Assembly: GCF_964355755.1 (NCBI RefSeq)
Contig: NC_092673.1
Location: forward strand, 4,097,001-4,161,000
DNA length: 64,000 nucleotides
Reading direction: 5' to 3'
DNA from: Antedon mediterranea
Taxonomy: Eukaryota > Echinodermata > Crinoidea > Comatulida > Antedonidae
Both the position numbers and the translations under genes were made by a program. The notes beneath the pieces were generated by a model. That model searched no databases. It saw nothing but the letters and a program-made list of their open reading frames with translations, and was not told the origin of the DNA. Positions 2,309 through 27,300 of this stretch are shown one piece after another (position 1 is the stretch's first letter; every line of letters begins with the position of its first letter).

Positions 2309-2715
2309 CTGATTGGTGTGAAGTGGCATTTTAAAGTTATCAAAATACAACCATTTCTGAGCCTCTTTGTGTTCCATATCATGATAGAAATCCCTGGCAA
2401 CAAAACCAAACGAATGAAACTCTCCTTCAGGTGTCAGAAGTAAAGTTGATGGCATCTTCGTATTCCATACTCCAGGATCTCCGCCCTGCCACTTGCGCAT
2501 TACAAATATCTCTTCAGGATTTGTCGGAAAGCAGTATGCATACCCACTAAATGTTGAACCAAAGTCTATTGCAATCACCACTTTGTAGGTTGTGGTAAAC
2601 TGAATTGGTAAAATGCTTGGATCTTCTGGTAGTTCTGGTGCATTTTCTGGATCACATGCATTGCTGTTGTTGCGATGTACACTCTTGAGTGGTGTACTTG
2701 TTGACGGCCCATCTT
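2309..2715 (-). CDS. HSPA12A/B-like HSP70 ATPase exon
   Basis: In the frame inherited from the giant exon, this exon reads EDGPSTSTPLKSV, an acidic linker, then VVIAIDFGSTFSGYAYCF, which is the phosphate-1 loop of the actin/HSP70 ATPase fold. It continues with MRKWQGGDPGVWNTKMPST, LLTPEGEFHSFGFVARDFYHD and WLYFDNFKMPLHTNQ. These blocks match the N-terminal part of vertebrate HSPA12A (GGDPGV, FHSFG, ARDFYHD, FKMKLHT), clearly closer than canonical HSP70. The exon ends in phase 0 at CAG with donor GTAAGA. The remaining ATPase lobes should lie to the left of the window. HSPA12 proteins keep a divergent ATPase and lack the usual substrate-binding domain. Confidence 0.88.
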
Positions 2716-5700
2716 CTTTAAGGAAAAAAAGTAATACACAATATGTAAAATGGTATCAGTTTTTGAGAAGACAAAGGTGAGTTTCCCACATTTTAAAGAA
2801 ATTGAGCAATAATTGACGAAGATATTGATTGATATTGATATTGATAAGTATATTTATTGTCATTTGTAAATATATAACATTTACATTAAAATGAATTAAA
2901 CGGTTTCGGCTAACAACAAATAAATAGAACTTAAACTACATAGTGAAACAATCCCACGCCGGACACCATCCTGGTACTTCTAGAACTGGTTTCAAGGTTG
3001 GTAAACAACATACATTAGATTTAAATTGCTAGATTTTTAAAGTGCTGTACAGTAGTAAAAAAAATCTTCCAATCCAACCAATATTACTAAACTATTATTA
3101 AATGTTTTAAAACTTTTAATCATGGAAAATAATAGTGTTTTATGACACATTTTTAGTCTTTGACCTCCCCCCACCCCCTTTTAGCAATGTCAAACATCCT
3201 CACTCATCCTTGAATGCAATTACTTGATGGTCAGTGCCACTGCAATGAAGCATAAAGGTAACATTGATACAGTACATCAACATGTTTACAAAGTACAATT
3301 TCTAATATACCACCTTGTATTTATCTTAAGATTGACATTTACCACAAACAATAAACAAACATGATAAAGTTTTAAAACACTTGTAACAGTAACAATAAAC
3401 TGAGGCCAGATTACTCTTTCTAGCAAATAGCAAAGTGGTCAGTCAATACTGATATAGCTATGTTGACACTGTACATAATACTAACCCTACAACAACAAAC
3501 AATTGTAGTATCAATTCTGAAGTTTTTGTTTCTAGAATCACTCATGATATTAGTAAAACTCTTACTCATGATTTTATTACTACACTTACTTAGGATTTTA
3601 GTACTACTCTTACTCCTACTCATGATTTTAGTCAAACTCTTATGATTTTAGTATTGTTTTAGTAGTAGTACTACCCTTACTACACTGATAAATTTAATCT
3701 TCTATTAACTTCTTTTTATGTATCTCCGTAGAAATCATTTTCAGTATGGTAGATTGTCCAAGTATCATTTCCTATACTTGTAAATTGATACAGTTATCAG
3801 ATTATCAAGATTCAAATATTAAACTCTGCATTAATATTATCACCGTAACTAAATATTGTATTTACACTTTCCTTTTCAAGACCCTTAAGTTGGGTCGGCT
3901 TGGCACCATTAATTTAAAACCCACTGGTTTAATCAAAGAGGAATGATATTGATATTCTCAAGATATGATACTTGATGCATAGCATAGCATAGAATATTAA
4001 CGTATTTAAACTTCTATACACCAAGTTCCATTCATTCATATTATATTATATTCTAAATTTCAACGTACAGTAATTTAAAGCATGGATGTAATTGTTTTGG
4101 GGTGGAGATGTGCAAGACACCCGCCTTTAAAATATTAAGTCTTTCACCCTTCCTGATCTTATTTTAAAGCCTTCCACCCAGCCCAATTTAAAATTCTGGA
4201 TACTGTTGCATATCCCACCTACCCAAAGCATTTTGACACCTATCCCTAGACATCTCTAGCTACATCTCTGATAACAATATAAAATATGTACTTACCCAAA
4301 TTAAATGACACGTCTCCAGATAATTTTAGATGTTCATCTGTATCATCAAAAATAGATTCATCTTTCAGGTCTTTTCTCTTTTTCCCTTTACTCAATTTTG
4401 AAACCGAATCATCTGACGAAAGAGAATAGTTATGTGCTTTGACCGTTCCTGATGGAGAGACGACAGCTGGTAAGGTTTTACTCTTTCGTTTCCCAGAGAA
4501 ACTTATCTTAGGCAGTCTAAAACCTTTTCTTTTATTCTTTTCTACCAAAGAGTGACTGGAACTAGAACTTTTTATGTCTTCGTCAGCTTGACTAGAGCAA
4601 CTGGTCTCCATAGCAGAAACATCTGCTGATGGATCAACCTCTGCAGAAATTCCTGCATTTACTGAGAATTCTTCTGGGCATCCAAAACCTGGAAGGCTTA
4701 CTTCCCCTTCACCAACTCCTGAAGAAAGTCCAGAATCAGAGGCAGTAAATGCTGGACTTGGTAAATCCTTGTTGATATCTGTAATGCCACCACCAGTACT
4801 TGATATATTCAATTTTAAAGGTTCGTGTGAATCTTTAATAATTACATCAACTTGTTTATGTTCTGCCGTGTCAATCTTTATCATATCCAAATTGTTTCTT
4901 TCTTGACCCTCTATTTGAGGTCTTAATTCAATTGTATCGACAACATCTTCTACAGAAGTTGATATGTTTTCTCTGTCGGATGGTAATTCTAAGCCAGATG
5001 CATTCAGAGAGAGATCTGGATCTGAGGTATCTGCTTCTCCTTTTAATTTCACATCAGAAATGATAGGTTTTTGCATGTCAACTCCATCCAATTCATCTTT
5101 CAGATCAATTACTATTTTTTCTTTATACACTTTTTCCTTTTTACTTTTTGATAATTTGAAATTTAATGAAGGCATTTTGATTTTCTTTTTAGGTTTTGAA
5201 TTAATGACTTCATCCAATTGTCCTCCATCAATTTCACTTTCTAAGTTTTTAACCTGTAATGACTTGTCCACAGAAATATCTGGTAAACTCCTGGCAGGTT
5301 CAATATCAACTGATGAACTAGGAAGCAATGTTGAGTCCTCCTCTTCTATGGAAATAGGAAGTGATAATGACAATGGTCTTGGTTCAATCTTAAAATCTTC
5401 ATCGACACCATTGGTTGATGAAGGAAGAACTTCCATCGATTTTGGGCGTCTGAGATTTTCAGTATCCATATTTATTTTGTTGGTTTTATTTTTTCGGTTC
5501 CACAAATTAGGAAAGTTGAATGAAGGTAAAGTAAAACGTTTCTTCTTTTTCTTTAATTTTGGACTCGATAGCTCAGGTTCTGAACTTCCTTTCCGTAAAC
5601 GCATTTTCACACTTCCCTCGATGCTAATGCCACGACTGACCCTAGGCTTGAAGTCTAACTTGGTTTGAGGAAGAGTTGCGGATTTCTCAGATTGTTGAAT

Positions 5701-8700
5701 ATAATATTCTGTTTGTAATTTTTCAGTTGATGGTTGTTTGACAATTTGAATATCACTTTCTAGTTTGGTTTTGACAATCTCGTCTATGTCTGTTTTTAAG
5801 TTAACGCTTAAAGGTTGAGACTCTCCCAAATCATAAGAATCAACACCATTCTTTGTGGTTGGTTCACTCAATTTAATATTCGCATCTACTTCATTTTCAA
5901 ATAAGATAGGATTATCTACATTAACTTCTGAATCTTGAATGTCTTGTAAGGTTGGCCTACATGTATCCAATTTTGTTGCGTCCTCAAGATCTGTTTCAAT
6001 CCCTAGATTAATATTATAATTAGATATCTCTTTTGTTTCAGGTTGATCAATGTTTATTTCAGCTGAGGTATGAAGTTCTGGAGTTTCCCCTTCAGAAACT
6101 ATACTTGAGCTTTCTTTGTTTAGCAGAACATTACCAATATCGGGAACTGTTACATTGATGTTTTCTGTTTCATGTTTTGGTACGTTTTCCATCTCCAAAT
6201 TTTGTGTTGGTATATCGATATTCTCTCCCTTATTGTCCATATTTATGTTTATATGAAGTTGTGGATGCAATTTTATTTCATTCTCATCCACATCAATTTT
6301 AATTTCAGCATCCTCTGTTGGATAGTCCAAAACTTCAGGTAGTTGGCATTCAACCTCATTATTGGTTTCGACAACAGCATTTGTTCTTAATTTCTGACTC
6401 TGAACTCTTGCATCAACATCGGGCATACATACTTGTAATTCCTCTCTATCAAGATTTGATTCTGGTAATTCTGACACTACCAGATTGTTAGTATCAATAC
6501 GTTTATCATGTTCTGCCTTAATATCAACATCTGGTGAACATGTTGTTAAATCATCTATCAAATTATCCTTTTTCTTTTTATCCCCAATTCTTGGGATATG
6601 AATGCCTCCTAGCAGGCCTTTCTTTTTGTGGGGTTTAGATTTCTTGATTTCTTTTTCTTTATTTCCATTTCCGTCATCATAACCAGCACCTATTTCAACA
6701 TCACTGTTGATAGTAATTCCTTCATCAATAGTAGCTTTTAGGCTTAAATCTTCAATATCTGGGTTTTCCTCAATAGTATCCAATGCTAAAACATCCCTAT
6801 CTTCTAAATGTAACACACCTGGATCAATATCTGTCTTTAATACCTCAATATCAATATCTGCATCAATATCTGCTTCAATGCTAGTGTCCTTTTGAATTTC
6901 TATTGTGCCTTCTATGCCAGGTTTTTCTTCACTTAGTCCTACGCCACTTTGAACTTGATCGCTCACACCTGGTATTGGAGTTAAATCACAATCCACCACA
7001 CCTTTATTTCTCTTCCAAGAAAACGATGGTAGATGTATATTAATCCCACTAAAGAATCCTTTCTTCTTATTCTTAGCATTGTTGTCATCATTATGGTCAG
7101 TGATATCATCTGAACTGCTACTCCTACTTTTTGAAACGTTATCATTCTCCATAATACCTTCTTCTGGAATACATTCAAGCTCTTTTTGTTGAAAATCTGT
7201 TCCAAATTCTGGAGTTTCAAACTCTTCAAAGTTGTCTTCATTTAATTCAACATCCACATTCAAAGAGGTTGAAATTACAGAAATCTGTACTTCAGCATCA
7301 GCATCCTTTATTTCCTTTTCAATTGAGGATGTGGTATCATTAATTTGATTGGACTGAGGTATGTCTGTATCAACTTTTGACTCCTCAATTTCAATCATTT
7401 TATTCCGATGTTTTTTCCCTCCAAACTTGGGAAATTGTATGCCCTTTGCGAACAACCCTTTCTTTTTCTTTTCATGTTTAGAAGAAAGTTGAACTCCATC
7501 TTCTTTCAAATCTGAGGATTCTGTTGTACTTATATCAATGGGAAAGTCACCTGACACATCACCTTTCAATTCTGAAGTGCTATGATTTTTTACATCAATC
7601 TCCTCCTTTAGGTTTACATCAGTTGCCTGTGCAATTGCATCTATTTCACTTTCTTCTGGACACACAGAATCATTTAATTCTGGGTGCATAATATCTACAT
7701 CAATTCCATCATGTTGTGATAATTCAATTTCATTGTTTTTTCTTCCTCCAAAATGTGGAATATGAATGTTGAATCCACTGAATCGATTTTTCTCTCCTTG
7801 GTTATTAATTTCACAATTATCAGATATTGTTAAAATGTCTAGATTTGATTCATTTTCAATAAGACAACTTTCATCTACATCTTTGTCTAAATCTCGTATC
7901 TCGCCATTGCCTTCAAAATTTGAATCTTTTACAACTGTAAACTTTGGATCAACATTTATTGAGGTAGTATTTAAATCACAATCTAAATGTTGTGGTGTCT
8001 CGACTCCTATGTTACAATCGACATCCTTGCGTTCAATACCTGGAACATTAAAACTGATTTCAGGTGATACCTCAGTCTCTGCATCAATGTTTTCACTTGA
8101 ACTATCTGAAATGGCAGTGTCTTTCATATTCCATATCTTTCTGTTGTTACGCTCTTTTAAATTCATATCAAACACATGCTTATCTTCTTCTGAAGATTTG
8201 CTTGAAATTTCACAATCCACATCATCTACAGCTGGTCTGTATCTGTCTTCTGAAAATTCTTTATCATCATCTAGAATCGATACGCTTTTGATAAACGTTT
8301 CAGAATTACCTTTATCGTTATTAAGAACAATTCCTTTATTTGTATCTTGTATGTTAATGTCGATAGCTATATTACAATTATCAATACTTTCTTCCATATC
8401 AATACTGCCCTTTTTGTGCTTACTTCCGAAACCTGGCATGTGGAACCCGGAAAAGAACCCTTTTTTCTTTTTGTTCCTATGTTTATTTTCCGATTCTATT
8501 CCTTCCGATGTTTGTAAATCTTCCTTATCCACATCAATACGTAGATCTTCTGATTTGTTTGCCGTTTTATCACCATTATTATCATCAAATGTTACTGGTT
8601 TATGGTCACTACAGTTAGAAACTGCCCGAGCAAACTTTATGTGAACTATTTTATTTTCAGTATTACTCTCTTTTGAATCGGCCTCCATAGTTGTACCTAA

Positions 8701-11700
8701 GTCAAGTACTTTATGGTCTTCTTTCTTTACTGGCTTTATATTTTCTGCAGCTTCTATTCTATCCGTACCCAAAATAACTTGTGCTTTTTTAGGTATTTCT
8801 TGCCAAGCAATACACTCATTATCTCCTTCAATGTCTGGACTGATTGCTAAAGACTCTAAATCTGGCTTTTCCTTCTTTCCGCCAGATATCTGTCTAGCGA
8901 ACCCACTTCCAAAAATGCCTTTGTTTTTCTTTGTTTTTTTCTTAGTCTTTTTCTTTTTGCGTTTCTTCCCTTTTGACAACTTGAGCACTTCATCATCCGA
9001 ACTAGTAGATGATGAAGCAATATCTTTCCCTGTCCACTGTATTTCTAGGTTTTTATCTTCTATTGGTACACCCTCTGTAGCTTCTCCTTCAAATCCTGCA
9101 TCAACACCTATTTCTTGTGTTATACAGGAAGTCTGTGCATCATTTACAATATCAATCTTTTGACCATTTTCTAATACAAACTGATCCATATCGTTATTTC
9201 TTGTTACGCCTACATCAATGCCAACAGACCCCAAATTGCTCTCTTCCTCGATCTTACTGTCATATTTGTTACTTTTAAGTGCAATATCTTTTGAGATATC
9301 AACCCCTGCACAATTTTGAACTTCCAACTCCATAGGATATAGATCATCTTCACCTTGATTTCCAATATCAACTTTATTTCCTATGTTTAGTGAGATGTTG
9401 CGTTCGCTTTGACAAGTATTGTCGGTTTTAAAATTTGTCGTTGGTTGTGATACACCTCCACTTTCTAATAATTTTTCAGCATCAGACTTATTTGTATCCA
9501 TATCTAAATTCATGTTAACCCAAACATTAGCATCCTCAAATTTTGTTGAATCTTTTTCGAAAGATGAATTATTTTCTATGTTGTCTGTTTCCTCTACCAC
9601 CAGACCTGACATGTGAATTCCAACATTTGCCGAAATATCTTCATTTTTAGTTTCTTCTTTTCCTTCATTAACATCACTTTGTCCAGTGGCTGTTGTGTCT
9701 AATGGTTGACCAAGGTCCATCTGTAAATCAATGGTCTTCCGCCCTGTCGTTTCCACATCTTCCTGTAGCTCTAACTGTGTAATCTGCTCTTTGCTTATAG
9801 ATTCACCTGAATCGTCTGGCTTATCATTCAACTTAAAATCTTCCTGTTTGGAGTTATCACTCAAATTTAATTCAACATTCTCACTGTTTGAGATTTCCAG
9901 ACAGCCTTCAAATGTTGGAATGTTAAATTTTCCACCTGTTGCACTGGTATTATCTGTTTTAAGGTCCACTTCTGACGAACCTTTACATTCATCTGATCGG
10001 CCATCTTCTTTTACAGAAGACTGTATGGTTATCTCTGAATCACCTTCACCATTTACTATTTCGTTTGAAGCTCCTGGACATTCAATCAATGTTGTTGGTA
10101 CTGAATCAGATTCCATTAATTCAACTGTAACTTTACTGTTCTTTTTCTTTTTATTTCCAAATTTAGGAAAGTGAAAATTGAAGATTCTCCGTTTTCGTTT
10201 TTTCATTTTCTTAGTTGTAACTTCTTTATGTTCATCGTCTGAGCTTGAACTAGGCGACGATGATGCATCAGAGATCTTACACTCTCCTTTAATCTCTGCA
10301 TCATTATTTTCTATATTGTGGTTGTCTTCTATTACTGGTAAGTTGTCACATGCTAAGTCGTCATTTGCTAAATTTGTATTTATTTCTGTCTCCTCCTTAT
10401 TTAAAATATCTGAATTGTTCATGTCATTTTCCATATCAAGTTCAAAATGGACTGATTTTCCAGGCGATTCAACATTTCTTTCTTTTGTGGTACATATTTC
10501 AGAGTCCTCAAATTGTTGAATATCAAAAGTGTTTTGTTCAATTCTTTCAATGCTAACTACTTCTTCTATTGCTTGTGATGTGATTTCTATCTTGCTGTTA
10601 TTTGGATTTTCTTCTTGTAATTCTGAAAATGAATTAATTGTTTTTGATAATTCTTCTAGAAGTTGTGCTGTGTTGATGTCCCGGACATGTTCTTTGTCAC
10701 TAGAAGGTAGAATTATTTTAGTTTCAACTTCTTCCATCACTTCAGTATTTTCTTCTTGCATAAAGTTTAAATTGTGTGTATACGATCCATCCATTTTATC
10801 TTCAATCGTAATTTCATCTGGCGCATCAACTTGGCATGTAGTCGCTTCTTTTGACATCACATTATCCACTGTAAATAATAAATATTAGTTTCAATACACA
10901 ATACATATAAGTGTATATATATATATATCCAAAGGCAAATTAATGAAAAAATGACAATGAAGTGGCTGGATCTCAATTGAGATACAAGATAGATTTTAAA
11001 AAACGCTAAATCAAAACAGTAAAGTAAAACAGCCAGAAAATGTGCAGAGCTTTCGGGCAACACTAACTAGTATACCCACTAGCCCTAATATACTTTTTTC
11101 TTTTTGTCTGTATGAATGAAACGCTTTTATATATTGAACTATGAATAATAAATCAAAATGTCAAATTGTATTATTGTTGTGTTATAACAGAGAAAGAAAC
11201 AAGCGCCTCATTAAGAAGTTTTAACGAGCTGCTAATGATGACAAAAGACAGTTATTTTACTTCGATGAGATAATACGCGCTTGTTCATAGCTATTGAATT
11301 TGGCTGAGCAACAGTGTTGCGGTGTTGGGTTACTGCTTGCTGTAGGTGTCATGCTGTGGGAAGTGCTTTTTACAGCTATACGGGTAATTAGGTTTATGGT
11401 TTACAAAACAAGTCTTAAATCTTAAAATATTTGGACATGGTCCAACTCCAATATTACAAATTTAGCTATAAACATTATTAAAGTAATGTATTAACTTTAC
11501 AGTTATATATTTAAATATCTTGCTCATTTTTCAATCAAATTTTTCTATAAATCCAGTATAAATGTCACAAAAACACAATAATTTAAATGTCTTTCCGGCA
11601 ATTTGTCTTTATAAACATCTTATACGTTAATTCATAATGAGAGTTTCCCTTTATATAACATTTTTAAATTACTGTATAGTTAGCTAAGCCAACACTATAT

Positions 11701-14700
11701 ATTTATTTTAACATTTGTTTGCATAATAACATTCACAATCCTCCTAATTACAGTACTGTAGTTAATTTTTCAAGAAAGTTTCGAAAGCTTACATCTTATT
11801 TTTATTTTTATTTTATTCATTTCGGCAATAGACATGAAATAATCATTGATTTATAACTACAATATGGGCAGAAATATTTAATAGTGTGCCTTATTTGACA
11901 CTCTCTCCATTTTATAAAAGTATTTTGCCTAATTTCTTTTTTTTATTTTGTTGAGATTAACATAATTAGGGAGATCTCCCTGACATAATATATGATACTA
12001 CCTACTGTATAGAAAAGTAGTTTGTAGTTTGACCTCTATATCCAACAAGAAAATCTATTTACAACTACCATCACTATATTCTCAGCAAGACACTCCACCC
12101 AAGTTCATGATTCAGTCTCACTAGGGAAACTTGTATTTGGTAAATTGAATAAAAACAGTCGTCTTTCTTGTTATCAAGTACAAATCAGATCAACCTTCTA
12201 GTCATTTTTTAAGAGCTTGGGGATTCCAACAAATGTTTATGTTTCTGTGAAACAGTCATTTTTCAAAATGTTGTCTTTTCATATTTTTTTGTGAACAGCA
12301 GGAGTTAATATCCAGCTGGCTCAAAACTCCAGAGAATGGAATTTTACAGTAGTAGCATTATGAAACGTAATACTATAAGGGATTCAAGTATTGGAAATTA
12401 TGTGAAATGAAATCTTGAAATGATTTTGAGAGGTGCAGGATTGTTCCTTTTAAAGATTGCCTTACTGTGTACATTTATTTTCTATATCAATATTAAACTA
12501 TTTATCTTCTTTATTGGCCTAGCATTCTCCTGAAGATGGTTGTAGCATAACATCCGGAATCATACTTTTATTTTCTTATGATCCAATTTAATTATTCTTA
12601 AGCTCTGTCTACACTATCAAACTTTATGTGACAAAAAAATGTGTCCATATATGGAGATGATGACGTCATATCACTACCATATTTGGGCATATAACTACAT
12701 ATACATCACAGTTTTTTTTATCAAACTACTTATTACCTTAATTTCCATCATTAATTCAGATATGAGTGTTACAATCTCTTACTTACCACCACCATTAAAT
12801 TGTATAGATAGTGTAGACGAGCTTTAGAATGAAGCCAACAAGAAGGGATGTGCCATATATGGGCTTTATGTACTATATTTATGAACTCTATTTCTAGTTT
12901 CAGCCTACTACATCCCAGGGAAAAATTTCATTTTAAAATTTTGTTTAGCAATATTGCTAATCAAACTGATTTTTGAGTCAAGGAACATAGTTTTGTATTG
13001 TATTTTTTGCTATACAATTTTCAAAATGTGTAGCAATAAGGTTGTTTTGTATAGCTTTTTGCTATGCTACACTGGCGAAATTATTCCCTGCATCCATGTT
13101 GATCTTTCCATGTCATCTCTATTTAGAATTCCTGCTGTAACCCCCTAAAGAACTATGAAACCCGATTTAGTTTGAGCATTGGTGGTCCAATTAGTCTGAG
13201 CTTAATGGATGAAAGTAATATAATGTTTATAATAAACTTGTAAACAAATCACATACTCTTTATATAATTTCAATGTATATAAATATTTTTCAAGTGTCTG
13301 TTGTGCTGATTTGATGAAACAAATGTTCCACCATCTGCAAATCAAACTTTATCACATCAGGTGAATATATTTTTTAAGTCTCTTTTTTTTTAACATCTGT
13401 TTTATGATATTATATTATTTTTAATTCCTTTTACTATTTTTAATTCTTATTACTAATGTTTTACTCTTTTTATAAAATTATAATATTAATGATGCATTTG
13501 TATTTTATCCTTTTGTCATACTGTCAGTATTTTACCTCTGTTTATGATATTTTATCGTATGATTGATTTTAAATATATAATTTAATGATATTAACAAACT
13601 TGTTACTGTTTTATTGAAAAGATATTATTGATATCATATTATGCAAAAAAAGTTCCCAATCAAATATGACAAATGTTTTAGTTTAAGTTTTTCTAATAAG
13701 GACGAAACGAAAGTAGAATCAGTTTTGACGGTTTTCAGAATTAGGCTTACCATACTCTTTTTCTGTATTCACAATCTGTATGTGATTTATGCGAGGTTAC
13801 TTATCATCCAAGATGGAATTTGTGGTATTTTTATCAAAACTTGGCAACTAATCAGTGGTTTCCCAGCAGGTTAGGGCAAACAAGGCCACAATACAGATTA
13901 GCACTCTCACTGGGCCATCCTCAAATAAACAGGTTGGCCTATAAACACTTTTATCATCAATACCAAATGTTTCATATCTTTTTACACCAATTAAATTCTA
14001 CTTACTCTACTAACAAGTACCAGAATATTTTTTTTTGCTGCAGAAATAACTGCTTTCATGGATGGATGTACTGTAATTGTGCACTCAGCCTATGTTATAA
14101 AGACTACTGTATATTAATTATCAGGATTTCCACATCGCCTCACACCCAAGAATCTTCTAGATACTTAAAAGTATGGTTTTATTTTACTTTTTCCCACCCA
14201 CCAACCCTTATTTTAAGGCTATATTCCTGTTTTATTAAATTGTATACATTTATATGTCATTCCAAAAACGCAATACCGTATAAAATATTATAAATTAGGT
14301 TCTTCAGAATTTTCGGTATTTTTTTAAACTTGATGTTTCTTTCTTTTCAATCAACCTAGACTGATTGATATTTTAATCAAAATTATCCCATTGAGATATA
14401 ACTCATTGTATACATTATCTCTTCACTGGTTTTTACTCTGATAGGATTGAGCTGCTGGGTGTTAAATTTAATATAAGATTATTTTAACATTCCAGTATTT
14501 TAAAAATAACTGTTTTTAATCAGAACCATAATGCTGACTTTGATCTATTTAATTTATACAATTTTGTACAATTACTCATACACATTTGGCCCATATTTAA
14601 GTACACTGTGTCGCTTTTCTTTACGCCCTTTGCTTAAATGGGCTCCTTGTCTATACTACTTTTGTTTTTGATGTACACCCCCTTTCAAACATTAACAAAA

Positions 14701-15893
14701 TTTATGGCCCATTTTTTATCAATTGCTATATTGTTCAGGCCAAAAATGGAAAGTTTCGATATAACTCATAAATGTCTTTATGACACTTTCTTTACCACTC
14801 AAGTTGAAAAGATGACAATGACATTACAATGATCAAACACAAATGAAAAAAAGCTTGTTAAAATGGGTTTTAAAATGGAATAAAGTTTATACAATGACAC
14901 AATGTTGTACTGTTTAAAGAAAACGAGTGTGCCGTATTTATATCAAAGAAATAAATTATAGATCTCATAAAATAAAATGAATAGCCATTGGTAGTACTGT
15001 AGTATGTATAGTAGCATTATAAGTTACACATGGCATCACTGGTGGTACGAATTAAAACATTTGACATTTGTTAAATATAGTAAGTTGTAAATGGAGATAT
15101 TTGTATTTGTAATGAGTACAATATAATTTTTAAAAATTAATAAAAATTTTTTTTTTTTATAACTTATTATTTATTAAAGATGGTCCTCTCCTAGAAGTAG
15201 TAGCCGCCCTATTATGGATACCCAATGAGGTAGTTCTACTGGCCTCTAGTCTAACTAGGATGGTCCTTTGGTCCATGAAAAGATGTATAAAATGTTAAAT
15301 ACCACCATCTATTCTAAAATAATACATTTTGGACTTATTATTGAGTTTCTTTGTCGTGCCTTGACCAAATGATACTTTGTTGTTTCTTGATTGTATACAA
15401 ATGTTGATTTTGATCGAAATAAATGTTGAATTTAATTATTCTTACCTTCTTTACTGCATGTAGGCCTATCAATTTCAAGGTTAATTTCTGCTATTCGAGC
15501 TTCATCATTAAAAACACTGACTTGAGCTGTTTCACTAATTTTATTCAAAGCATCATCATTTTTCTTAGCTTTTTCAGAAGCAGACTTCTTACTTTTCCCC
15601 TTTGACTTTTTTTTCCCTTTTTTCTTGCTTGACTTTGAAGTATTTTCATTCACAGGTTGAATAAAATTTACAGATTTCTTCTTTCCACTCATTTTTGGTG
15701 GAGTGAAATCCATAGTTTTCTCAGATTTATCATTAGTTGTTTGAAATTCTACATCACAACCAATATTATCCATGTTAGCTCCAACTGCATCATCCTCAAG
15801 TGCTTTGTGGATTCCTGTCACACCCGTGTCATCATTGGCGTTTACTTCAAATTTAAGCGAGGCAGAGATTACTTCATCATTTTTGTTCGACAT
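2309..15893 (-). CDS. Giant AHNAK-like / HSPA12-type HSP70 fusion gene, 5' three coding exons (partial at left edge)
   Basis: Three coding exons read leftward: 15446-15893, 4296-10868 and 2309-2715. The joins use donor GTAAGA/acceptor TTTACAG and donor GTAAGT/acceptor TTAAAG. Both junctions are phase 1 and the frame stays open for 2,476 codons. The start ATG (15893) has an in-frame TAG three codons upstream. The first 2,340 residues are low-complexity, acidic and lysine-patterned; the HSP70 nucleotide-binding domain then begins near residue 2,386 with VIAIDFGSTFSGYAY. HSPA12 proteins are atypical HSP70s of about 675 residues with a short disordered N-terminus, so this extension is extraordinary. 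The HSPA12 exon has no in-frame Met before its phosphate-1 motif, so it needs an upstream coding exon, which supports the fusion. The third exon ends in phase 0 (donor GTAAGA at 2308); no continuation exon was found in 1-2308. Seen: frames, splice sites, motifs. Inferred: that all exons join in one mRNA. Confidence 0.72.
2712..2717 (-). promoter_or_regulatory. NAGNAG tandem 3' splice site of the HSPA12 exon
   Basis: On the minus strand the acceptor reads TTAAAGAAG, with two AGs three bases apart after a T-rich tract. Either choice keeps the frame, adding or removing one Glu/Asp-type residue (ED or D). Confidence 0.5.
2716..4295 (-). other. Intron between giant exon and HSPA12 exon
   Basis: A 1.58-kb intron with clear GTAAGT donor (4295-4294) and AAAG acceptor (2717-2716). 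It holds short GATATT runs near 2820-2850 and an irregular TTAGTA/CTCTTACTC-type simple repeat at about 3530-3680. No gene is seen. Confidence 0.6.
4296..10868 (-). CDS. Giant 6,573-nt exon encoding AHNAK-like acidic repeat region
   Basis: A single exon of exactly 2,191 codon-equivalents, phase 1 at both ends. The translation is rich in D, E, S, N, I and K. It carries about ten copies of a basic-aromatic motif, roughly K(K/R)KKGx(F/L)xxxFxxPxFGxKxKK. Approximate positions: 10138-10207, 8871-8960, 8410-8480, 7735-7795, 7405-7475, 7000-7075, 6570-6635, 5495-5560, 5130-5195 and 4480-4545. Typical cores are FHFPKFGNKKKK, FHMPGFGSKHKK, IQFPKFGGKKHR and IHIPRIGDKKKK. Several are preceded by casein-kinase-2-like clusters such as SSSSDDE. 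Linkers contain runs of alternating D/I/V (DIDADIDIEV). The general style recalls AHNAK/periaxin repeats; homology is not provable by eye. Lysine-plus-Phe clusters often bind acidic lipids or actin, so a membrane or cortical scaffold is a guess. Confidence 0.8.
10869..15445 (-). other. First coding intron of the fusion gene
   Basis: A 4.6-kb intron, donor GTAAGA and acceptor TTATTTACAG. It contains one AGCTCTGTCTACAC-type MITE (12601-12825) and otherwise AT-rich sequence. Short open frames within it have no recognisable protein. Confidence 0.6.
12601..12825. mobile_element. MITE family A, copy 1
   Basis: Left end AGCTCTGTCTACACTATCAA and right end ATAGTGTAGACGAGCT are inverted repeats. The middle holds the family's CCATATATGG and ATCACTACCATATTTGGGCA blocks, with an extra AT-rich insert near 12715-12800. 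Confidence 0.8.
15446..15893 (-). CDS. Exon 1 of the fusion gene: lysine/serine-rich N-terminus
   Basis: This exon encodes 149 codons plus one base, beginning MSNKNDEVISASLKFEV. Residues about 88-110 form a dense basic stretch of alternating K, S and G (SSKKKGKKKSKGKSKKSASE). That resembles the lysine-rich blocks of the next exon, so the two probably belong to one protein. It ends TCSKE plus G at donor GTAAGAAT. A likely 3' splice site (TTTCATTCAG) lies about 25 nt upstream of the ATG. A strong donor (GGA, GTAAGTAC) at 16109/16108 may end a 5' untranslated exon. No known domain is recognised. Confidence 0.7.
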
Positions 15894-16109
15894 TTTGCCC
15901 TACCCCAAAGGCTTTACAAATCTGAATGAAATTCCAAGTTAGATTACTCCTTTATTACATAATGAAAACCTACATAAAACTTGGCACACATTTAAAGGTC
16001 AAATACTGTACGTACTCTGCTAAGCAATATACAAAGTGATTCTCTGTTGAGAGCAAACTTTGTTTGATGAAAACTTTGACCATCTGCTGATATATCTTGT
16101 GTACTTACT

Positions 16110-18028
16110 CCACCTGTGCAGTTGTGGCGTTCAATGAGATTGGCCAAATCCTTTTATGACCTTGTTACATGAAATCCGAAACCCATGCATGTAGTGACTG
16201 GTAGAAGGTCATTGGATTACTGGGTTTACTAGGATGAACACCCATGAATAAAATTAAGTTATCAATTTATTTAAAAACTCCATTAATACACCTAAATAAT
16301 TATAGACCTTTTGATTTTAATGGATTCTTCATGTATGGTGATATGTATATTTTATACCTTTGGATTAAGGATTAAGTACATACATTTTTCAATGGATTGA
16401 TTGAAATGTTGATTGGAATATTGATTAGGATGAAAGTGATGTCATGCGTTATCATTATCTATTAATAGATAGATTAATATTTTTATGATATTCACATCCT
16501 CTCCATATAGAAATACTAAATTGAAATATAGTTACTTTAGTCCTAGAGGGCGCTACCACAAAAACTATGGCAGAGCCATATATATAAAGAGTTGCAACAT
16601 TGAAAATTAGAAGCCATTTTTGTGTCAAAGAATTCGCACGCTGAGGGCGCGCGCGTCTATTTCGTATAGCGTTTTCCTGTAGTTCATGCATTATTTTTAG
16701 ATTTTTTTGTCTATGAAATAACGCTTATATTCCGTTTTTATTTTAGTAATTGATTTTATTAATGGTATTAATTTGGTAACATATATATATTGTGTCTATA
16801 ATAACAAAAGAATAAATGCTAGGGCCTACATACAAGTCAGGATACATCAAGGCATGAACCAATACAAAAAACACACAAATTCACCCCTCTTTTTATACAG
16901 TATATGGCTCTCTGTGTGTTTTTGGCACAAACTTTCAGAGACTCGTTCATCATTTTATTTGTAATAATTTGCCTTTATTATTTTAATATTGTTCATACCT
17001 ATTCAATATATTAACAAATATATCCACGACACTTTATTATTTTATTTAGTCATCAAGCATGCATTATGAATTTAAAATGTTACATAATTGTTATTAACAG
17101 GACGTAGTTATGGGATGTTTCGTTCCAAAATCAATCAATCGAACTTTATAATGTACTAGCGCACGCGCGCGCAATATTCTTTGCCGCAAGTACTTCTTTA
17201 CGCTGTGCACATCGATATTTCACTGTAAAATGTGCAATTACATTTTTTTAAATATAAGAAAAAGTTTAAAGTATTTTCTTGCTCCTATTCTTTACATGCA
17301 TTAATGGAGACAAGTTTGACACAAATTGATCTGCATATCACGTGGCTATAATCCAATGTCGTAACTCTTTATATATATGGCTCTGAACTATGGTAATAAC
17401 ATGTTTTTCCTTTTTTCTTCAGTTGTCTATTTTTAAGCAAATACTTTAAATAGACTTATGTTTGTATCTTGTTTATCTTGCTTTCTTTTCTTCAATTAGT
17501 GTTGTGCCACAATTTGTTGGAAATATAATATAAAATACAAAACAAGACATTTATACAAAATATAACCAGCTACTGTTTATGTTATTTACAAATATCTAAT
17601 CTTTATTCACCAATAAAAGTGTGTGTGTACTTTATATTTTATTATTATATATTTATATTATATATATTATCTCATACGTTTGGTATAAAAATAAATAATT
17701 GTTATCAAGTAAATACAGAGGTTTTTAGTAGCAATAAGAATGATAGAATATTTTTATTTATTTCTTTTCTTCAAAGTTTTCCACTTTATATTACTGTATA
17801 CCCACCTGGCATTTTCTAAAATAGTTATAGCGCCCTCAATTTTATTGAACTTTTCATTTGTAATATTGTACTTCTATCTGCTTGTAAAATTAATTTTGTT
17901 GCAATGCTATAAAAAGTGGCACAAATGTACGTAATTACTGTACCACTCATTTGTATGCACTTTCTTTTTCTCTAACAAACAAGAAATGGCACAACGCTGT
18001 CATAAATTGTTCAAAACCTTTTCCCCGG
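16110..18028. other. Intergenic region between fusion gene and MIEAP-like gene
   Basis: Apart from the inverted-repeat element at 16553-17396, this stretch is AT-rich and shows no supportable gene. It contains the start region of the leftward fusion gene (about 16.1 kb) and the 3' flank of the leftward MIEAP-like gene. Confidence 0.5.
16553..17396. mobile_element. Non-autonomous inverted-repeat element, about 840 bp
   Basis: Left arm ACTATGGCAGAGCCATATAT, followed by ATAAAGAGTTGCAACATTG (about 16564-16605), is repeated inverted at about 17352-17392. Similarity continues inward to TTTGTGTCAAA, giving arms of roughly 65-70 bp. GC-alternating CGCGCGCG stretches lie inside both ends. No transposase frame is present. 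Confidence 0.6.
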
Positions 18029-18313
18029 TTACGTAATTACCACCCCTTTGTATGCAACTTTCTTCCTCATCCCTTCAAGTAACGTCGGCCATAAGTAAGT
18101 CAAAATATGCTGTGATGAACGATTGCTACCAGGTGCACGTTGATGGCGCCCTTTATCGAATGTGATGTTGTCGTATTCAATCGTGTAAGGTTGTGGTTGG
18201 ATTGACAATTGCCAGGCAATGCGTACACATTGTTGGATGTAGTTGGTGAGAGGGATGGAGGACTTCAGAGTAGGGTATTCTGGTAGGGTAGAAAATAGTT
18301 TAGTGCTCACAGT
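18029..18313 (-). CDS. Last exon with the MIEAP domain signature
   Basis: The acceptor TTCTCCACAG is in phase 0. The exon carries LTNYIQQCVRIAW, YTIEYDN, the SSQHILTYLWPTLLEG block and the terminal KGVVIT, then TAA. In SPATA18 the corresponding text is a YHVWPALMEN-type motif followed by KGEAVT, after which the vertebrate protein continues with an SR-rich tail. That tail is absent here. Confidence 0.8.
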   Translation of the reverse strand, partial: TVSTKLFSTLPEYPTLKSSIPLTNYIQQCVRIAWQLSIQPQPYTIEYDNITFDKGRHQRAPGSNRSSQHILTYLWPTLLEGMRKKVAYKGVVIT

Positions 18314-21300
18314 CTGTGGAGAAAATGAAAGTTGGAATTTTAGTGTATGTGCCTACATTTATATTAAACCTTTAATTTGATGGATGAAATTTGTCATTGT
18401 ATATTATCATGATTCACCAGTGGAAAATTAGATAATAAATATTGTACTGTCTGTATATCCACCAGCTTGGTTTTTGTGGATGGACTTGTACAAACATTTA
18501 GTTTTTCAGTGATTTTTTGCAGTAGTAATAATACCATACCTGTGACATGTGATTAATGTCCATGTTGTCGTTAATTGTCCTTAAGAACATGAATATATTA
18601 GAATCCAAGGTGCGTGAATCGTCGGTAACTCGTAAGATGCTTCGCATGTTCTTCTTCATTAGGTAGAGTGAACTTTCGGCAGCACGAAATGCGAGCTAAA
18701 AGTAAATAACACAACAGATATGAAACTAGTATGTTGATATTACCATTCATTTTATTATTAATAGCATGTTATCAAGCCTGATTACATTGCTTTATATTTC
18801 TTCTACAGAATAATAACTTTATTCTTAAAGTGCGTTATTTACTAAAACCTTTAAATTTAAATAAATATACTGGCTTTGTTAATGAATTCAGGTTGATTTA
18901 ACCAATACATTAGTTCAATAGAAATGTGACAATACCCGTTTAAATGTATATGCATTATTGTAGATTTCCATATCCCTTGTAATTTATATTGTATTGTGCT
19001 AAATATGTTAATCTTGACAGCTTACACACAATAACACAAGCTCTGTTCCACTTGTATTTCTTCCTGTATTTTGTGTTTTGTTCTACGATGCAATTTATTA
19101 TGTACAGTAATATTGACATATTTTTATTATGGAAGCCATATCAGCCTATAATGCTATGTAGTGTAGTAATTCAATTTTATTTCTTTCTACAACATACTAC
19201 TGTTTCCAAATAGCACAGTAAATCAATTTCATGAAGTGAATATATACCTGTGTCAAATTCAATACTATAATATTAATGTTGGCATTGGGATAAAATAAAA
19301 ATATCAAATATATAGGCCATACTTTTTTCTTATGATTCTGACTGCACACAGTTTTGGCAATTTTGTTAGAATATTAACCCTCCCCACAATCATGTAGCCC
19401 TCCCCCCACCACCTTCTAAACATTGACAGTGATACCAATCCACATTGTACTTTAGATTTACCATAAACTTATTTCTCCATGGATATACTTACCACAATAA
19501 CTGAAAACAGAAGTTTATCTCTCAAATCATCACTGTGTTCAAACTGGTTCATATCAGTCATAATGTTTAGAACGGTCCATGCGTCGGCTCTCACTTCTGT
19601 GTAGAGCTTGTCGTATTCATACACCAGATTGCCAATGTTGTCATCTGGTACTTTACTGTCAATCACTACTTTGGTCTCATACTCTTCGTTTTTCTGAGTT
19701 TCCTCAGTTAATCTAAATTAAAATATATCAATAAACCCTCATGTATTAGTAATTGCCTACATAACATAATAACACTATATAAGAATCCATTAACCAATGT
19801 AACATTAATCACTAACATAATAAAAATGTAACCACAAATGTTACAAACTTCATTTAAACCATTTTGATATTTTCTGTTTTCTCATTTTTTGAGATCCTAT
19901 AGTGTGTATTAACAATCATTCCATTCAGTTGAATTGAGTAGTGTTTGAGTTATCCATTACCAGTACATTATATTGTTTTAAAGCTCTATATACACTATCA
20001 AACTAGTTTGACAAAAGAAATGTGATGTGCCCAAATATGGTACTGATATACCTAAATATGGTAGTGATATGACACCATTATGTCCATATATGGGCACATC
20101 ACATTTTTTGTCACATAACATTTGATAGTGTAGACAGAGCTCACAGTATACTCACTTTCTTATCATCTCGCTTTCTCTCTGCCGAAGCATGGTGATGTCT
20201 TCCATCGCTTTACTTAGCTCTTTCTTCATTCCTTCCATCTCCATCCGCAGGACTCTTTCTTGTTGCTCAAGTTTGTCCTTTTCTTTTTCTAATTCATGCT
20301 GAAGACTTATTTGTTTTTTCAGCAACTTTTCTACGTCCTCATGGTGATTGTTGTTGGTCTGAAGTGAATTACTTGTTTTGCTTGTGGTTTTCTGGTCTGC
20401 TTGTTTGGTGCTGCTATTTCTCATGCTACCTCTTCCAATTTTCTCTTCTGTAATTAAATAATCAAAGTAATTTGATGAATTAATAGCAATTCTAAATAAA
20501 ACCTCTTTAAAATTCATAATTGTCTGCGCCATTATTGTTGTTCTCTCCTTCTTATCAGTAATACATTAGGTTCGTACTGTAGACTATGTATTCTAGATTT
20601 ATTCTAAAGTTGTGTCTGCACTATCAAACTATATGTGACAAAAAATGTGATGTGGCCATATATGGACATGATGCTGCCATATTTGGTAATATCACTACCA
20701 CATCACGATTTGTTGTCAAACTAGTTTGATAGTATAGACAGAGCTTAGGTGGCATATTAAAAGATAGACAAGAATAAGATATGTGTTTTTTAAACAATAT
20801 TATATTAAATATAGTAGTGATGAATATGTTAGAATATTAGAATGCAATTAAATAGGAAAATTGATTTTTTTACTCTACAGTATTTGACATATAGCCTTGA
20901 AGAAATAGTAGGCCTACACTTCTTTCTGGCTGTTTTTTGCTTATTTTAAGTTAATAATAATAATATGGATTTATATACGCAACAACAAGACAAGTTCCAT
21001 CCACAGCATTGTCATTTGTTCAGTTATTTGCCTTTGGATTTATATTATAAATAAATATGAATATTTTGTATGATCTAATTCACTGCATTCCCAATTTATA
21101 ATGTTAGTACTGTATCTAACAATACAACATTTCTAATTAGATTCTGACAGTTGATATTTCGCTATAAGAACACAACCTAAGTGAAGAGTAGGCTTTGAGT
21201 TGTCAATAAAATTAAGTGTCACTGTACTGAAAACAGCATTATTTGCGGTGGCCATCAATAAGCCATTATTTTGAAAACAATTACACTGCTTTCAAATTTA

Positions 21301-24300
21301 GTGAAGCTGAAATAATGTAGAAACAACACGCAAGGCCGCCACGAAGACACTGAGTAAATCGCTGTTTAGTGTACCAACATACTGATAGTCTTGTATATCA
21401 ACTAATCCTGATAGAATATCATGGCATTGACATAAGTGTAACAACCACCTGCACCCAATCAGAAATCATTTATTGAGAAATCCTGCACCCAATTAATCCT
21501 CATTTTTAGGCCTACATTGGTAGGAAATAATATATGATTCTCATAAAATTATAAAAAGACCTATTTTTCATCTTGTGACTTTTTCTGGAGAAATAATTCT
21601 ATTTTTATGTCACGAGAAACAAATGCATGGAGAAGAAACCTAGACTTTTTTTCGGTCTATTATTTCTTTTGTTGTCATTCTTTTTCTTGTTTTTCGTGTT
21701 TGTATCATTCTAAGTGTTGAGGGTCTCAGGCATGTCATCCTCAGTTATTATGAGTTATCCTCATGAAACAAAGTTTATAAAAACAAATGTATTATTGGAA
21801 ACACATGAAAAGGGACCATAATTTGCAACTTTTATTTATAATCTATAAAAAAATGAATAAAAAAAAATCTGTATCAGGTGATAAGGCTATACACATAATT
21901 AATTATGCTAAGTAAATGGATCATATTATGACAATATTATCCATTTCATTAGATAATTATAACTATCTGTTTCGTAATCAATCATGAAACTAGTTATTCA
22001 TCATCGTTGATTTAGACAAGAGAGTTATTACACCCATAACGCCACCTGCTTACAGTAACTTCCATTAGTGCATATTGATTTGTAAACGCATCCCGTAAAA
22101 CGCCCCAGCCAAATAATTTCACAATTTTATGTTGTTGTGGGCAATGCTAATGTACGGGATGCCTGAGATAATTAAAACATGTTTGATTTTGTTGGAAATT
22201 GATAAACAAAATAGTAGGGATTTTGTCGTATTTTTTCAGTAAAAAGAAGAGATATTCCCTTTGATCTTGGAAATTAAGGTTGATCATTTCATAACTTTCT
22301 TTTTATCTAGTTTTAATTATTTTTTTCAATTGTGATATTCCACCTACCATAGAATGGAACATTGAATAACATCAGTCAACAAATTTGATTACAGTTCAGT
22401 TATCTCATCTAGGCCTATCTTGTCTATTTGTATCAAAAATGCATTTCAGCTATATTTTTGCTCCCACAAGTAGATCAATGTATATAACATTTTTTCATCT
22501 CTATATTTAAATGGCTTTATTTTGTTTCAGCTAAAATTTGTACCACAATTTTTAATTTCACATAATCTTGCAGTGTTGTATAATATACTATTTGTCTGTT
22601 TGTCCAGGTAAGTGTACACATTATTAGTCAAGAAATCTTTAAAGATATATTTTACCCCGAAAAAAAAAAAATTGTTTATACATTTTTTTGTTGAATATAG
22701 GCCTAGTTATTCACTTTGACCAAAAACTGGATCGAAAAAGAAATGATTTACCTGTTTTGGGGTAAAATTATTATTTTTCTACAGAAGTGAATAACTTCAT
22801 TAAAACTGCAAAATAGCCTATTTAAAGTCTGATTTTATTAGTCTTCATTTCATGTTTTTGTGTGGGGGACAATACATCTTTAAAATAATCTCATTTAGGC
22901 CTACACTACTGTAATATCATCAAAAGTAGTAGTTTGAATATTAAAACAGATCCAGGGGTTTTATCTCTTTTCTCATTTATTGAAAAAACAGGAATCATAT
23001 TATTGATTCGTTTCATGAAATCTTTCCAGTCAACACAAAGGGCATCTGATTACCTATCCGCTGACATTCAGCGTAGAAAGCGTAAACATCTTGTCATCTA
23101 GTCGTAAAAAGACGGCAGATTATGAATCTGAATAAAATATGCTTTCTTGCTATGTAATGTTTATATCAAAAAATGTAAAGATATCGTTTTAAAATGTGGT
23201 TTTTTCTGAACGCGAACTATACTAGGGGACACATCTATTAAGTAAGGTATCCCCTGAACAGGAGTTCTTTTAAAAATAAGAATAGACCAATCACAACAAA
23301 TTTGTTGTTATTATGTTAAAACTGTATATATGAAGAAATGTTAGTTTCCAAAGAAAAAGCACCATAGAGTATTACATAGAAATATAGCATATAAACCCAT
23401 TTGTACTGTAGTCTTAGTATAGCTGTAGTTCATTTTTACCTATGAATTATAATGTCAACACGGCCTTGTAGAAAACAGCAAAAAAAAAAAAATGAAAAAA
23501 GATATCGTGTTTAAAGAAAGTTATAATAATAGTATTGCATAATAGAGCTGTAAACATCCAAGTAAAGAATTATTATCAAATTGTTAGTTTCCAAAAACAA
23601 CCATAGCATGTTTACATCTCACTCAAAAATAATTCTGTTTTTTTTTTACTTGGAAGAAATGAATGGATTTGATATGAAGAGAGACTAGAGCTTCTCCTGT
23701 GTTTTGCACCTGTGGAAATTCCTTTCTCCTCCAAAACTTTCCTCCCAACGGCTATTTAAATTCAAAGAACACATTTTAAATAATAATATTAAGCAGTCAA
23801 GTATCTGATGCAAGATGAATTTCATAGAAGTCGGATGCCAGGACGCATTCAACATTTTTTTTTCAGGCTCCGGTTCACTTTATTCTTGATTTTAAATTAT
23901 TTTAGTAGGTATATTTAGTGAGTATCATCGTTTCATTAACATTTATTTGAAACAATCGTACATTTACAATAAGTTAAATGGTAACAATAAATAGGTTTCA
24001 GGGATTGGAAAAAGAAGTAAAAGAGCTAATTGTCTTATACCAACCCCCAAACAGAAAAAAGAGAAATAAACAGCTGAATGACATATCATTTATAGTATGG
24101 TGTTGTATGTCACAGCCTTATGGTGTGGTGTTGACTCCCTCCCCCAAAACCACATGCCTATAGTTTATCACGCCCGGGATCACGCCTAGTACCCTCTTTT
24201 TTCCCACAGTAACACCTTGATCCAGGTATCAGAAATGTAATATCTACCTTTTGACATTGATGATACTTGGTTTATCCTTTTTATCATTGAATGCAACTCA

Positions 24301-27300
24301 TGGCTATCCTCAACACTGTCTAAACGAGGGCGTGATATTATGACATTGCTTCTGTCCAATGACCGAACCCTTGTCCTGTCCTTTGAACCCCCACGCGTAG
24401 TCCTCTTTCGATCTTTTGATCTGCTACGTCGTTTCGGAGGTACATCATTTTGTTGACTTACTTTTATTCTTACTATGGTAAGAAAAAAAAGATATTAGTT
24501 ATCAATGATCATAAATGACATCATTTTCTTTCTAATTTTCTTCTCTCAGTTTTAGATAAATGAGCTCAATTGAAAATAAGTGAAAACAATTACAGTTTGA
24601 AATAACTGACTATATAAACACTTTTTCAGTGCAATATAAAGCTCTGTCTACACTTTTATAACTAGTTTAACAAAGTGTGATGTTCCTAAATATAGTAGTG
24701 ACATGACATGCATCATTTCCATATATGGGCACATCACATTTTGTTGTCACATAAAGTTTTATAGTGCAGACAGAGCTTAAGAATGAATAAAGCTCTGTCT
24801 ACACTATCAAACTACTAAATGTGGTAGTGATATGCCCAAATATGGTAATGATATGACATTATCATGTTCATATATGGGTCATCATCATTTTTGCAACCAG
24901 TGACTCCTTCCTATGACCATGTTTCCTGTAATAGGCAATACAAATCAGAAGACAGTCAACAAAAGGTTTTTATATCTTTATTGAATGTATAAGGAAGTTC
25001 AATAAAGATGAATTTGGATGACCTCATTGAATAGGAATAACACAGTCTTTGCTTTAGGCTCTGTCTACACTATCAAATTTTATGTGACAAAAAAAATGTG
25101 ATGAGTCCAAATAGACATGATGATGTCATATCACTACCATTATTATGTAAGCATATCACTACTATATTTGAGCAGTCAAACTAGTTTATAAAAGTGTAGA
25201 CAGAGGGTTATATTGCACTGAAAGTCAAAACACTAAAAAGTGGTAAAAGTGTTCATGCTTAAAAATGGTAGCGATATGACATCGTCATGTCCATGGGCTC
25301 ATCACATTTTTCTGTCACATAAAGTTTGATAGTGTAGACAGAGCTGTATTCTCTTGCTTATTAAAAATAAAACCCTTGCTACACTCTCATTTTTTTTAAT
25401 GGTTAGGCAAATAGGATAAAGTAACGTACTGTATACCTTGACATTTTTAATTGTATTTGTGTATTCTTTGTGTGGAACAATTGTGCCTAGCACTATTTAT
25501 CTCCAAAAGTGAATACACTTGTTCATAGAATCTCATTGTAACTAAACAGGTGCTGTTAACAATAGCTTTTATTTTCGCTAAATCCAACAGATTATGACCC
25601 GTGTTTGCAGATTTCTTTGAAAAAAAATCTGAATAAAAAATCTTTTATCTGGTAAAGTTCATTATTTTGTACTGTCAAGGTACAAGAAACTTTGTTTGTC
25701 TTCATAAAAAACCAAAGAAATGTCGGTTTTCAGCAAATCCGATTATTAAAAAGATACATACAGGTATTTTATGTCATCGATCAGTCCAATTATTTCTATA
25801 TATTATAGCAATTCCATTTGATCTTTATTTTAATGCATAAACAGTTAATTAGAACTATGTATTTATCTATTGAGTTACCCTGGTAAAATGAACATAAAAA
25901 AGTTAATCTTGAAAGAAACAATTAAATGACGTATAAATTGACGTAAATGAAATGATCGACTACGTAAATTCAGAATGCTAATTTGAAGTTCTAAATACAA
26001 ATTGAGGTCACTGAGATATAATGACAATTTTTAATGATTATATTATATATTTGATTAAGTTGCGTAATTACCCTAGATAAATGATCATAGTGTAGTGATA
26101 TGTTGGGCTAGAAAGAGCATGCAGATTTGATATGGATGTATATGGTTTCAAAAGATAATGTAAATGGTATATACTAAAAAAAATTAACAGAGTGTGATAA
26201 ACGTTGAAATGCTTAATTAAGAAAAGGATTTTGAAACTGAGGGCTTTGATATAGTCTGCTTTATCTATTGGTTTTTTTAAAGTCTTTCGTATTGTTGATA
26301 CGGTTTCTTATCAAATTTGTAATTTCAGGGATATGTATCGGTTTATATAGAAATGACACCATTAGTGTTTCATGAATCAGATATGGTTAAAAAAAATTGT
26401 TTATAACATTTAATGAAAAAAACACATTAGAACAAAATGATAGTGTTGAAAACAAAAGCATAACACAGACAGATTAAATTCTAAAAAAGAGTTGTTGAAT
26501 TTTCCCACACTGTCAAACAATGCACATAAAAGGCCTCAGTGATCCAAGTACTTTTGAACAAACATAAAAGATATTTTTATTATGACATCATAGGTATACT
26601 TATAATGCCTCAATTACTACAACAAACAGTCTGTACAGTCGTTTAAAATCGGTTCTTTGCCGAATAGAATATCGTAAAATCAGGAACCTTATAATAAACA
26701 TTCCAAAAAGAAACAGGAAAAGTTAAAATCCCTGCAGCAGAATTAAAAAGCCAAAAAAAAAAGAGTTATTGATATATCTAAAAATACTATACAGGATATT
26801 TCTGAATTTGTCTAATAAATATCTATCATTAATATTATCAATTAAAGATATATTTTCCCCTGAAAAAAATAATTTGTTTAAATGTTTTTGTTGAATATGC
26901 CATTATAATATTTATTCACTTTGACCAAAAAAACAAAAAAAAAGTTAACTAAAAAACTATAATTTAAAGCAAAAAATAGTAAAATTGACTACAAGTCAAT
27001 GGGATTTTTCTATGGAAGTGAATAACTTTATTAAAACTGCGAAATGGCCTATTCAAAGTCTTTTTTTATTAATCTTCATTTTTTGGGGAAACTAAATCTT
27101 TAAAATATTGATTACCTCTTTTAGAATCTGCCTTTGTATCGCATTCCAATGGAATAAAATTTTCCTCGTCACTAAAGTAACCTTGCGTCGAATAAGAAGC
27201 GGATTCTGAAAACTGCTCATCCAACATATCCTTGAAGAAATCGACTACGATCTTGAGGCTCTGTGAGTACTTAGCAATTGTAGATGCAACTTGAGAATTT

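Follow-up and report, generated by a model that had tools for sequence, protein, structure and literature searches.

A giant disordered exon and an HSPA12-type ATPase in one open frame: a likely fusion gene in the crinoid Antedon mediterranea

Does a giant, AHNAK-like exon in the genome of the crinoid Antedon mediterranea encode part of the same protein as the HSPA12-type ATPase exons that follow it? HSPA12 proteins are ATPases of the Hsp70 kind in which no substrate-binding domain can be recognised; their targets are poorly understood, and in vertebrates they carry a short disordered N-terminus. The window, a stretch of 64,000 nucleotides on contig 4 (C4:4097001-4161000), holds a locus that an initial annotation read as such a fusion. 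We favour, with a probability of about 0.6, a single gene for a 2,982-residue protein in which a disordered start of 149 residues, a 2,191-residue region from the giant exon and a complete HSPA12-type Hsp70-like ATPase follow one another, the giant region serving as a multivalent membrane tether that splicing can skip. The open frame, the splice borders, their phases and the ATPase motifs are read directly from the DNA; the mechanism, by which basic islands of the giant region would bind membrane lipids and so tether the ATPase, is a proposal that we rate at even odds.

The gene is read from the minus strand of contig 4, which makes up 36 Mb of the 354-Mb assembly (18 contigs). Three coding exons, A, B and C, fall inside the window, and neither the window nor the further sequence L001 contains an N.

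15446..15893, minus strand: exon A, the first coding exon, with its ATG at 15893; 448 nt, or 149 codons plus one base
Exon A donor: GTAAGAATAA, 10.5 bits, within the top 0.2% of GT sites
4296..10868, minus strand: exon B, the giant symmetric exon; 6,573 nt, or 3 x 2,191 codons, phases 1/1
4246..4295, minus strand: the B donor GTAAGTACAT and the 50 nt from it through the first stop codon reached in frame if B is left unspliced
2716..4295, minus strand: intron B-C, 1.58 kb
2309..2715, minus strand: exon C, 407 nt, the first HSPA12 exon, which carries the ATPase P-loop
Exon C borders: acceptor CTTTTTTTCCTTAAAG, donor GTAAGAATTT

The claim that A, B and C join at phases 1/1 without a stop is borne out by the coordinates and the frame: both joins, A to B and B to C, have GT-AG borders, set phase 1 on phase 1 and are stop-free. 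To the left of the window, five further exons, D to H (C4:4094013-4091426), continue the frame with GT-AG borders and fitting phases to a TAA, the gene ending at this stop at C4:4091426. The complete frame spans eight coding exons and 2,982 residues, with an HSPA12 part of 642 residues preceded by up to 2,340 residues. The gene model is well formed and unites two known kinds of protein. At its 5′ end, an in-frame TAG begins 9 nt ahead of the exon A ATG, and the C-terminal domain of a MIEAP protein (18029-18352, minus strand, E 1.5e-24, over the cut-off) ends the next gene upstream; because that gene ends there and a stop stands just before the ATG, exon A appears to start a separate gene, as these two landmarks suggest. 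Exon A is Lys-rich, and its best Pfam match, CAP-ZIP_m, reaches 18.1 bits, under the cut-off of 28.2.

The giant frame of exon B is coding and not a product of chance. At the base composition of B, where 8.2% of random codons would be stops, a stop-free frame of this length has a log10 P of about -81, while each of the other five frames carries between 40 and 308 stops; G+C by codon position is 0.47, 0.32 and 0.25. The encoded region is rich in Glu, Asp, Ser, Lys and Ile, acidic overall and interrupted by basic-aromatic islands, and its charges are clustered, with a variance of net charge over 24 residues of 15.3 against a maximum of 10.4 in 500 shuffles. Charge-hydropathy places B (H 0.411; boundary 0.444) and A with disordered chains, and the HSPA12 part with folded ones. 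Comparison of B with itself by blastp at E 1 returned the trivial self match alone, so that no long tandem repeat appears by this test; a 166-residue piece used as query picks up one weak match elsewhere in B (E 0.09; 37% across some 80 residues). The suggestion that the protein forms a polymer found no support.

A profile search of the predicted protein, proposed with the initial annotation, succeeded at one end only: the HSPA12 part matches Pfam HSP70 (PF00012) at 33.8 bits, above the cut-off of 20.6, which identifies an Hsp70-type ATPase, but B matches no Pfam family even with E allowed up to 10. The alignment to HSP70 runs no further than residue 485 of the 642 and position 370 of the 599 in the profile, and the HSPA12 part, judged by this alignment, has no recognisable canonical C-terminal substrate-binding domain. 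It carries, in order, IDFGST, EPEAAS, VVDCGGGTVDITVH and IVGGFAES, in which we take the P-loop, the second phosphate motif and the adenosine motif of an Hsp70-type ATPase to be represented in their usual order. The closest solved chains, among the best 60 of 76, are of DnaK/Hsp70 types (best E 7.2e-5), and nine NCBIfam families match far under their cut-offs, the best being HscA at 42.7 bits of 708.55. None of the matches in these libraries is specific to HSPA12, and the assignment to HSPA12 is presumed from resemblance. The likeness to HSPA12A and HSPA12B thus comprises the Hsp70-type ATPase, the lack of a recognisable C-terminal substrate-binding domain and the ordered motifs, whereas the up to 2,340 residues ahead of the HSPA12 part set the crinoid protein apart.

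One copy of this HSPA12 gene was found in the genome. An exon-by-exon scan with PF00012 gave 43 matches with none at the fusion locus, and single HSPA12 exons are therefore too divergent to score. Searched with the HSPA12 part itself at E up to 0.1, the genome returned six matches, exons C to H of the fusion locus. Whole exon B found itself alone (E up to 0.1), as did exon A (E up to 1). Such searches may overlook weak matches: the 166-residue piece of B has some on contig 10. No retrocopy with a spliced junction was seen within these E limits (0.1 for HSPA12, 0.1 for B and 1 for A). The single copy found here differs from the 73 and 57 HSPA12 copies given for two bivalves (PMC10969875).

What joins the HSPA12 exons to B? 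Within the HSPA12 part, the P-loop IDFGST sits at residue 50 and the first Met follows only at residue 73, which confirms that the HSPA12 exon has no in-frame start of its own. Since no Met lies ahead of the P-loop, the start must come from an upstream coding exon. In favour of the joins, the donors of A, B and C score 10.5, 9.2 and 11.6 bits, each within the top 0.6% of GT sites; the acceptors are ordinary, B at 4.2 bits (top 14% of AG sites) and C at 5.5 bits (top 7%). Two GT sites inside B score above the B donor (10.5 and 9.5 bits). Between 2716 and 18000, 16 combinations of an ATG with a phase-1 donor of at least 9 bits span less than 600 nt; B holds 12 of them, and the remaining four are exon A read from four of its ATGs.

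A different source for the start would be an undetected short 5′ exon in the gap, in which case A and B would form an AHNAK-like gene with its own stop at 4248-4246, HSPA12 would be a second gene on the same strand and the apparent junction a by-product of close spacing. Weak donors count in such a search because the real donors of exons D to G score just 3.6-5.9 bits. In the 1,530 nt between the B stop and exon C, six ATG-to-phase-1-donor candidates reach at least 3.5 bits, the best at 7.8 bits with a 13-nt exon, and the gap also holds two AATAAA signals. At the same threshold intron A-B, 4,577 nt long, has three candidates, about one for every 1,530 nt and thus roughly a sixth of the density in the gap, and 15446-18028, where exon A's own donor region is included, has seven. 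AHNAK-like giant exons often lie near the 3′ end of their genes, which also counts towards two genes. Four of the six gap candidates, however, start from a single ATG at 3623, in what appears on inspection to be repeat-like sequence, and a two-gene arrangement needs the B donor, the sole GTAAGT of the 6.6-kb giant frame, to fall by chance within the last 50 nt of that frame and in a phase compatible with C. By eye, the residues read beyond the donor (KYIFYIVIRDVARDV) differ from those in the rest of B, and the codon score falls to -0.37 per codon over the 16 codons across it versus +0.36 over the 45 codons before, by a model weak enough that the HSPA12 exons score just 0.02. Scanned with that model, introns A-B, B-C and C-D yielded weak segments only; since even the genuine small exons C and D have scores close to zero or negative with it, short hidden exons could escape it. 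We judge two adjacent genes to be unlikely and the B-C junction to be quite probably used.

The in-frame fusion is likely, not proven: the splice sites, the phases, an HSPA12 frame that runs on complete downstream and the lack of a start codon in it favour the initial annotation's fusion model. Among papers on HSPA12 (with AHNAK, echinoderms or gene fusion) and on the evolution of AHNAK and periaxin, judged by titles and the openings of abstracts, no such fusion appeared, and the combination of a giant scaffold with HSPA12 was not found described.

Whether every product of the gene would contain B is a separate matter. Because its length is a multiple of three and its phases are 1/1, exon B can be skipped in frame, and an A-to-C splice without it gives 791 residues. 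One gene with alternative products, a 791-residue A-C HSPA12 in most tissues and the giant A-B-C form in some, is compatible with the tethered fusion protein and about as probable as its opposite. AHNAK, whose locus also has a giant exon, gives rise to both large and small products (PMC10682155), which is a precedent for such a pair; a length divisible by three is, on the other side, a one-in-three coincidence for any exon.

The islands of B are the part of the sequence on which its proposed function turns. They combine Lys and Arg with Phe, Leu or Ile along the acidic chain, and the following stretches are representative.

10141..10212, minus strand: basic-aromatic island, B residues 220-243, KKMKKRKRRIFNFHFPKFGNKKKK, with SSSSDDE immediately before it
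8410..8472, minus strand: basic-aromatic island, B residues 800-820, KKKKGFFSGFHMPGFGSKHKK, scored at 4.5 bits by the motif model from contig 10 described below
7399..7470, minus strand: basic-aromatic island, B residues 1134-1157, KKKKGLFAKGIQFPKFGGKKHRNK, 3.9 bits with that model
6982..7098, minus strand: B residues 1258-1296 around the island KKKGFFSGINIHLPSFSWKRNK, the top match to the contig-10 AHNAK-style motif, 13.0 bits
6568..6627, minus strand: basic-aromatic island, B residues 1415-1434, KKKGLLGGIHIPRIGDKKKK
5131..5190, minus strand: basic-aromatic island, B residues 1894-1913, KKKIKMPSLNFKLSKSKKEK
4477..4533, minus strand: basic-aromatic island, B residues 2113-2131, KRKGFRLPKISFSGKRKSK

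Alignment of ten hand-chosen islands gives the consensus KKKKGxFxxxFHxPxFGxKK. An island pattern, composed after the islands had been seen, matches B eight times, where 2000 shuffles average 0.8 matches and never exceed 5; one of the eight matches (1759-1778) lies outside the ten aligned rows. Three of six acidic Ser clusters directly precede an island. As an enrichment in their own right these clusters are not clearly beyond chance, since a stricter pattern occurs four times in B and 42 of 1000 shuffles reach 4.

How far B is AHNAK-like can be gauged against a gene in the same genome. The 166-residue piece of B has, besides itself and its weak internal match, four weak matches (E 1 to 7) on contig 10, all in one open frame of 2,802 codons, which we take by resemblance to belong to an AHNAK-style repeat protein (PDVDLDADVKVKKPKAKGG...). 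This giant gene (C10:18170147-18186897, plus strand) has open frames of 1,085, 2,802, 392, 340 and 734 residues and repeat units such as KKPKAKGGFGFGFGGKKDHDHSDSDSDDDDKKKKRRSFGIKFPHFSGKSPK. A motif model built from ten windows of the contig-10 gene, with B left out, scores 13.0, 4.5 and 3.9 bits on B, compared with best shuffled scores of 4.8 (300 residue shuffles) and 8.2 (300 local shuffles); just the 13.0-bit stretch beats every shuffle singly, and the 4.5- and 3.9-bit stretches do not. Counted together, B has three stretches of at least 3 bits where any of the 600 shuffles has at most one. The whole-sequence score is negative (B -47.1, reversed B -46.8) and was left unused. The motif partly common to B and the contig-10 gene is a succession of acidic Ser, poly-Lys and aromatic residues, and P[DE][VIL] occurs 13 times in B (mean 3.7, maximum 10, in 1000 shuffles).

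With its 6,573 nt in a single exon, B has the giant exon of the AHNAK family, and it resembles AHNAK, AHNAK2 and periaxin in being mostly disordered and in one clear and two weak motif stretches. The family's defining features are a PDZ domain and long repeats (PMC10682155). No PDZ domain was matched in A or B, where a small hidden exon is possible, and B differs from these proteins further in lacking long tandem units (about 128 or 165 residues) and in the ATPase downstream. The description as AHNAK-like therefore stands for the 13.0-bit stretch and the 13 P[DE][VIL] motifs and fails for the PDZ domain and the long tandem repeat: by sequence, B is AHNAK-like in motif and style, and by definition, having no detectable PDZ domain and no long repeats, it is not AHNAK.

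Another parallel is AKAP12 (SSeCKS/Gravin), a disordered scaffold (PMC4214753; PMC7752083) whose three MARCKS-like domains, in which Phe and Lys are concentrated, bind PIP2/PIP3 (PMC4214753). B resembles it in being a large and disordered scaffold and in having several basic domains rich in Phe and Lys. AKAP12 is moreover cited as a direct partner of HSPA12B in yeast two-hybrid work (PMC4496407). The differences are that B has about ten islands against three in AKAP12, and that HSPA12 lies in cis here and in trans there. No AKAP, MARCKS or WSK family was matched in B by Pfam at E up to 10. Scanned for MARCKS, the genome gave nothing, a result of little weight as no control matched either; a scan for WSK also gave nothing, its controls matching only below the cut-off. 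HSPA12A is named within a list of exosome proteins (PMC11026673), and among the matches listed in a search for HSPA12A with phosphatidylserine none was on the subject by its title.

The Phe/Lys-rich basic islands are present in B, and phosphoinositide binding by them is a prediction; membrane binding by B is plausible. The tether proposal draws on the lipid-binding domains of AKAP12, on its cited binding of HSPA12B and on the presence of islands and ATPase in one frame. Some ten islands in which Lys or Arg stands with Phe, Leu or Ile, spaced out over an acidic and disordered chain, would bind acidic lipids of the inner membrane, as modelled on the Phe/Lys-rich MARCKS-like domains of AKAP12, and the chain of B would act as a multivalent tether that keeps the HSPA12 ATPase at the membrane or cortex. 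Phosphorylation of a MARCKS-type basic region is thought to end its membrane contact (PMC7752083), and phosphorylated acidic Ser clusters could weaken the tether in B. If B were skipped, a free 791-residue HSPA12 would result, so that splicing could set whether the ATPase is tethered or soluble.

RNA, actin, importins and calmodulin are further conceivable ligands of Lys-rich islands, and the giant region might carry HSPA12 with no part in membrane binding, acting for instance as a scaffold of the cytoskeleton, of condensates or for binding RNA. The disorder of B by charge-hydropathy would suit this, as would the single stretch that beats every shuffle with the contig-10 model. It has more difficulty with the islands themselves, in which Lys, Phe and a central Pro recur in a repeated order like that of the Phe/Lys-rich lipid-binding domains described for AKAP12 (PMC4214753), and with the fact that this order is partly common to the AHNAK-style gene on contig 10. 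We regard a scaffold without a membrane role as possible, at somewhat less than even odds, and retain the membrane tether as the preferred function. A bolder extension of the tether, which we consider doubtful, is that this animal's sole HSPA12 is part of a giant scaffold that binds membranes and whose 6.6-kb exon, by being kept or skipped, switches it between tethered and free forms, and that the locus is a 'Rosetta stone' pointing to AKAP12/AHNAK-type membrane scaffolds as natural partners of vertebrate HSPA12. If so, a natural fusion would name a class of partner (AKAP12/AHNAK) for HSPA12 that is testable in vertebrates, where the precedent is the one interaction cited from yeast two-hybrid work.

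Several other features of the window were seen. In the upstream MIEAP gene region (18029-28268, minus strand), a second MIEAP match at 19469-19717 (minus strand) falls short of the cut-off. The gene may also include a coiled-coil-like exon (20152-20565) and an open frame of 399 codons (27069-28268), neither with a confident Pfam match. A FYVE zinc-finger exon lies at 54479-54739 (plus strand, E 2.1e-11) in a gene that is presumably ZFYVE28/LST2-like, and a 511-codon acidic frame at 50437-51972 (plus strand) may be part of the same gene. The tandem repeat at 57690-58436, which translates to TCHQGSMLP in one frame of the minus strand and to GDMLVT in one of the plus strand, is likely a minisatellite, and arrays of similar look occur at 37297-38000 and 60333-60668.
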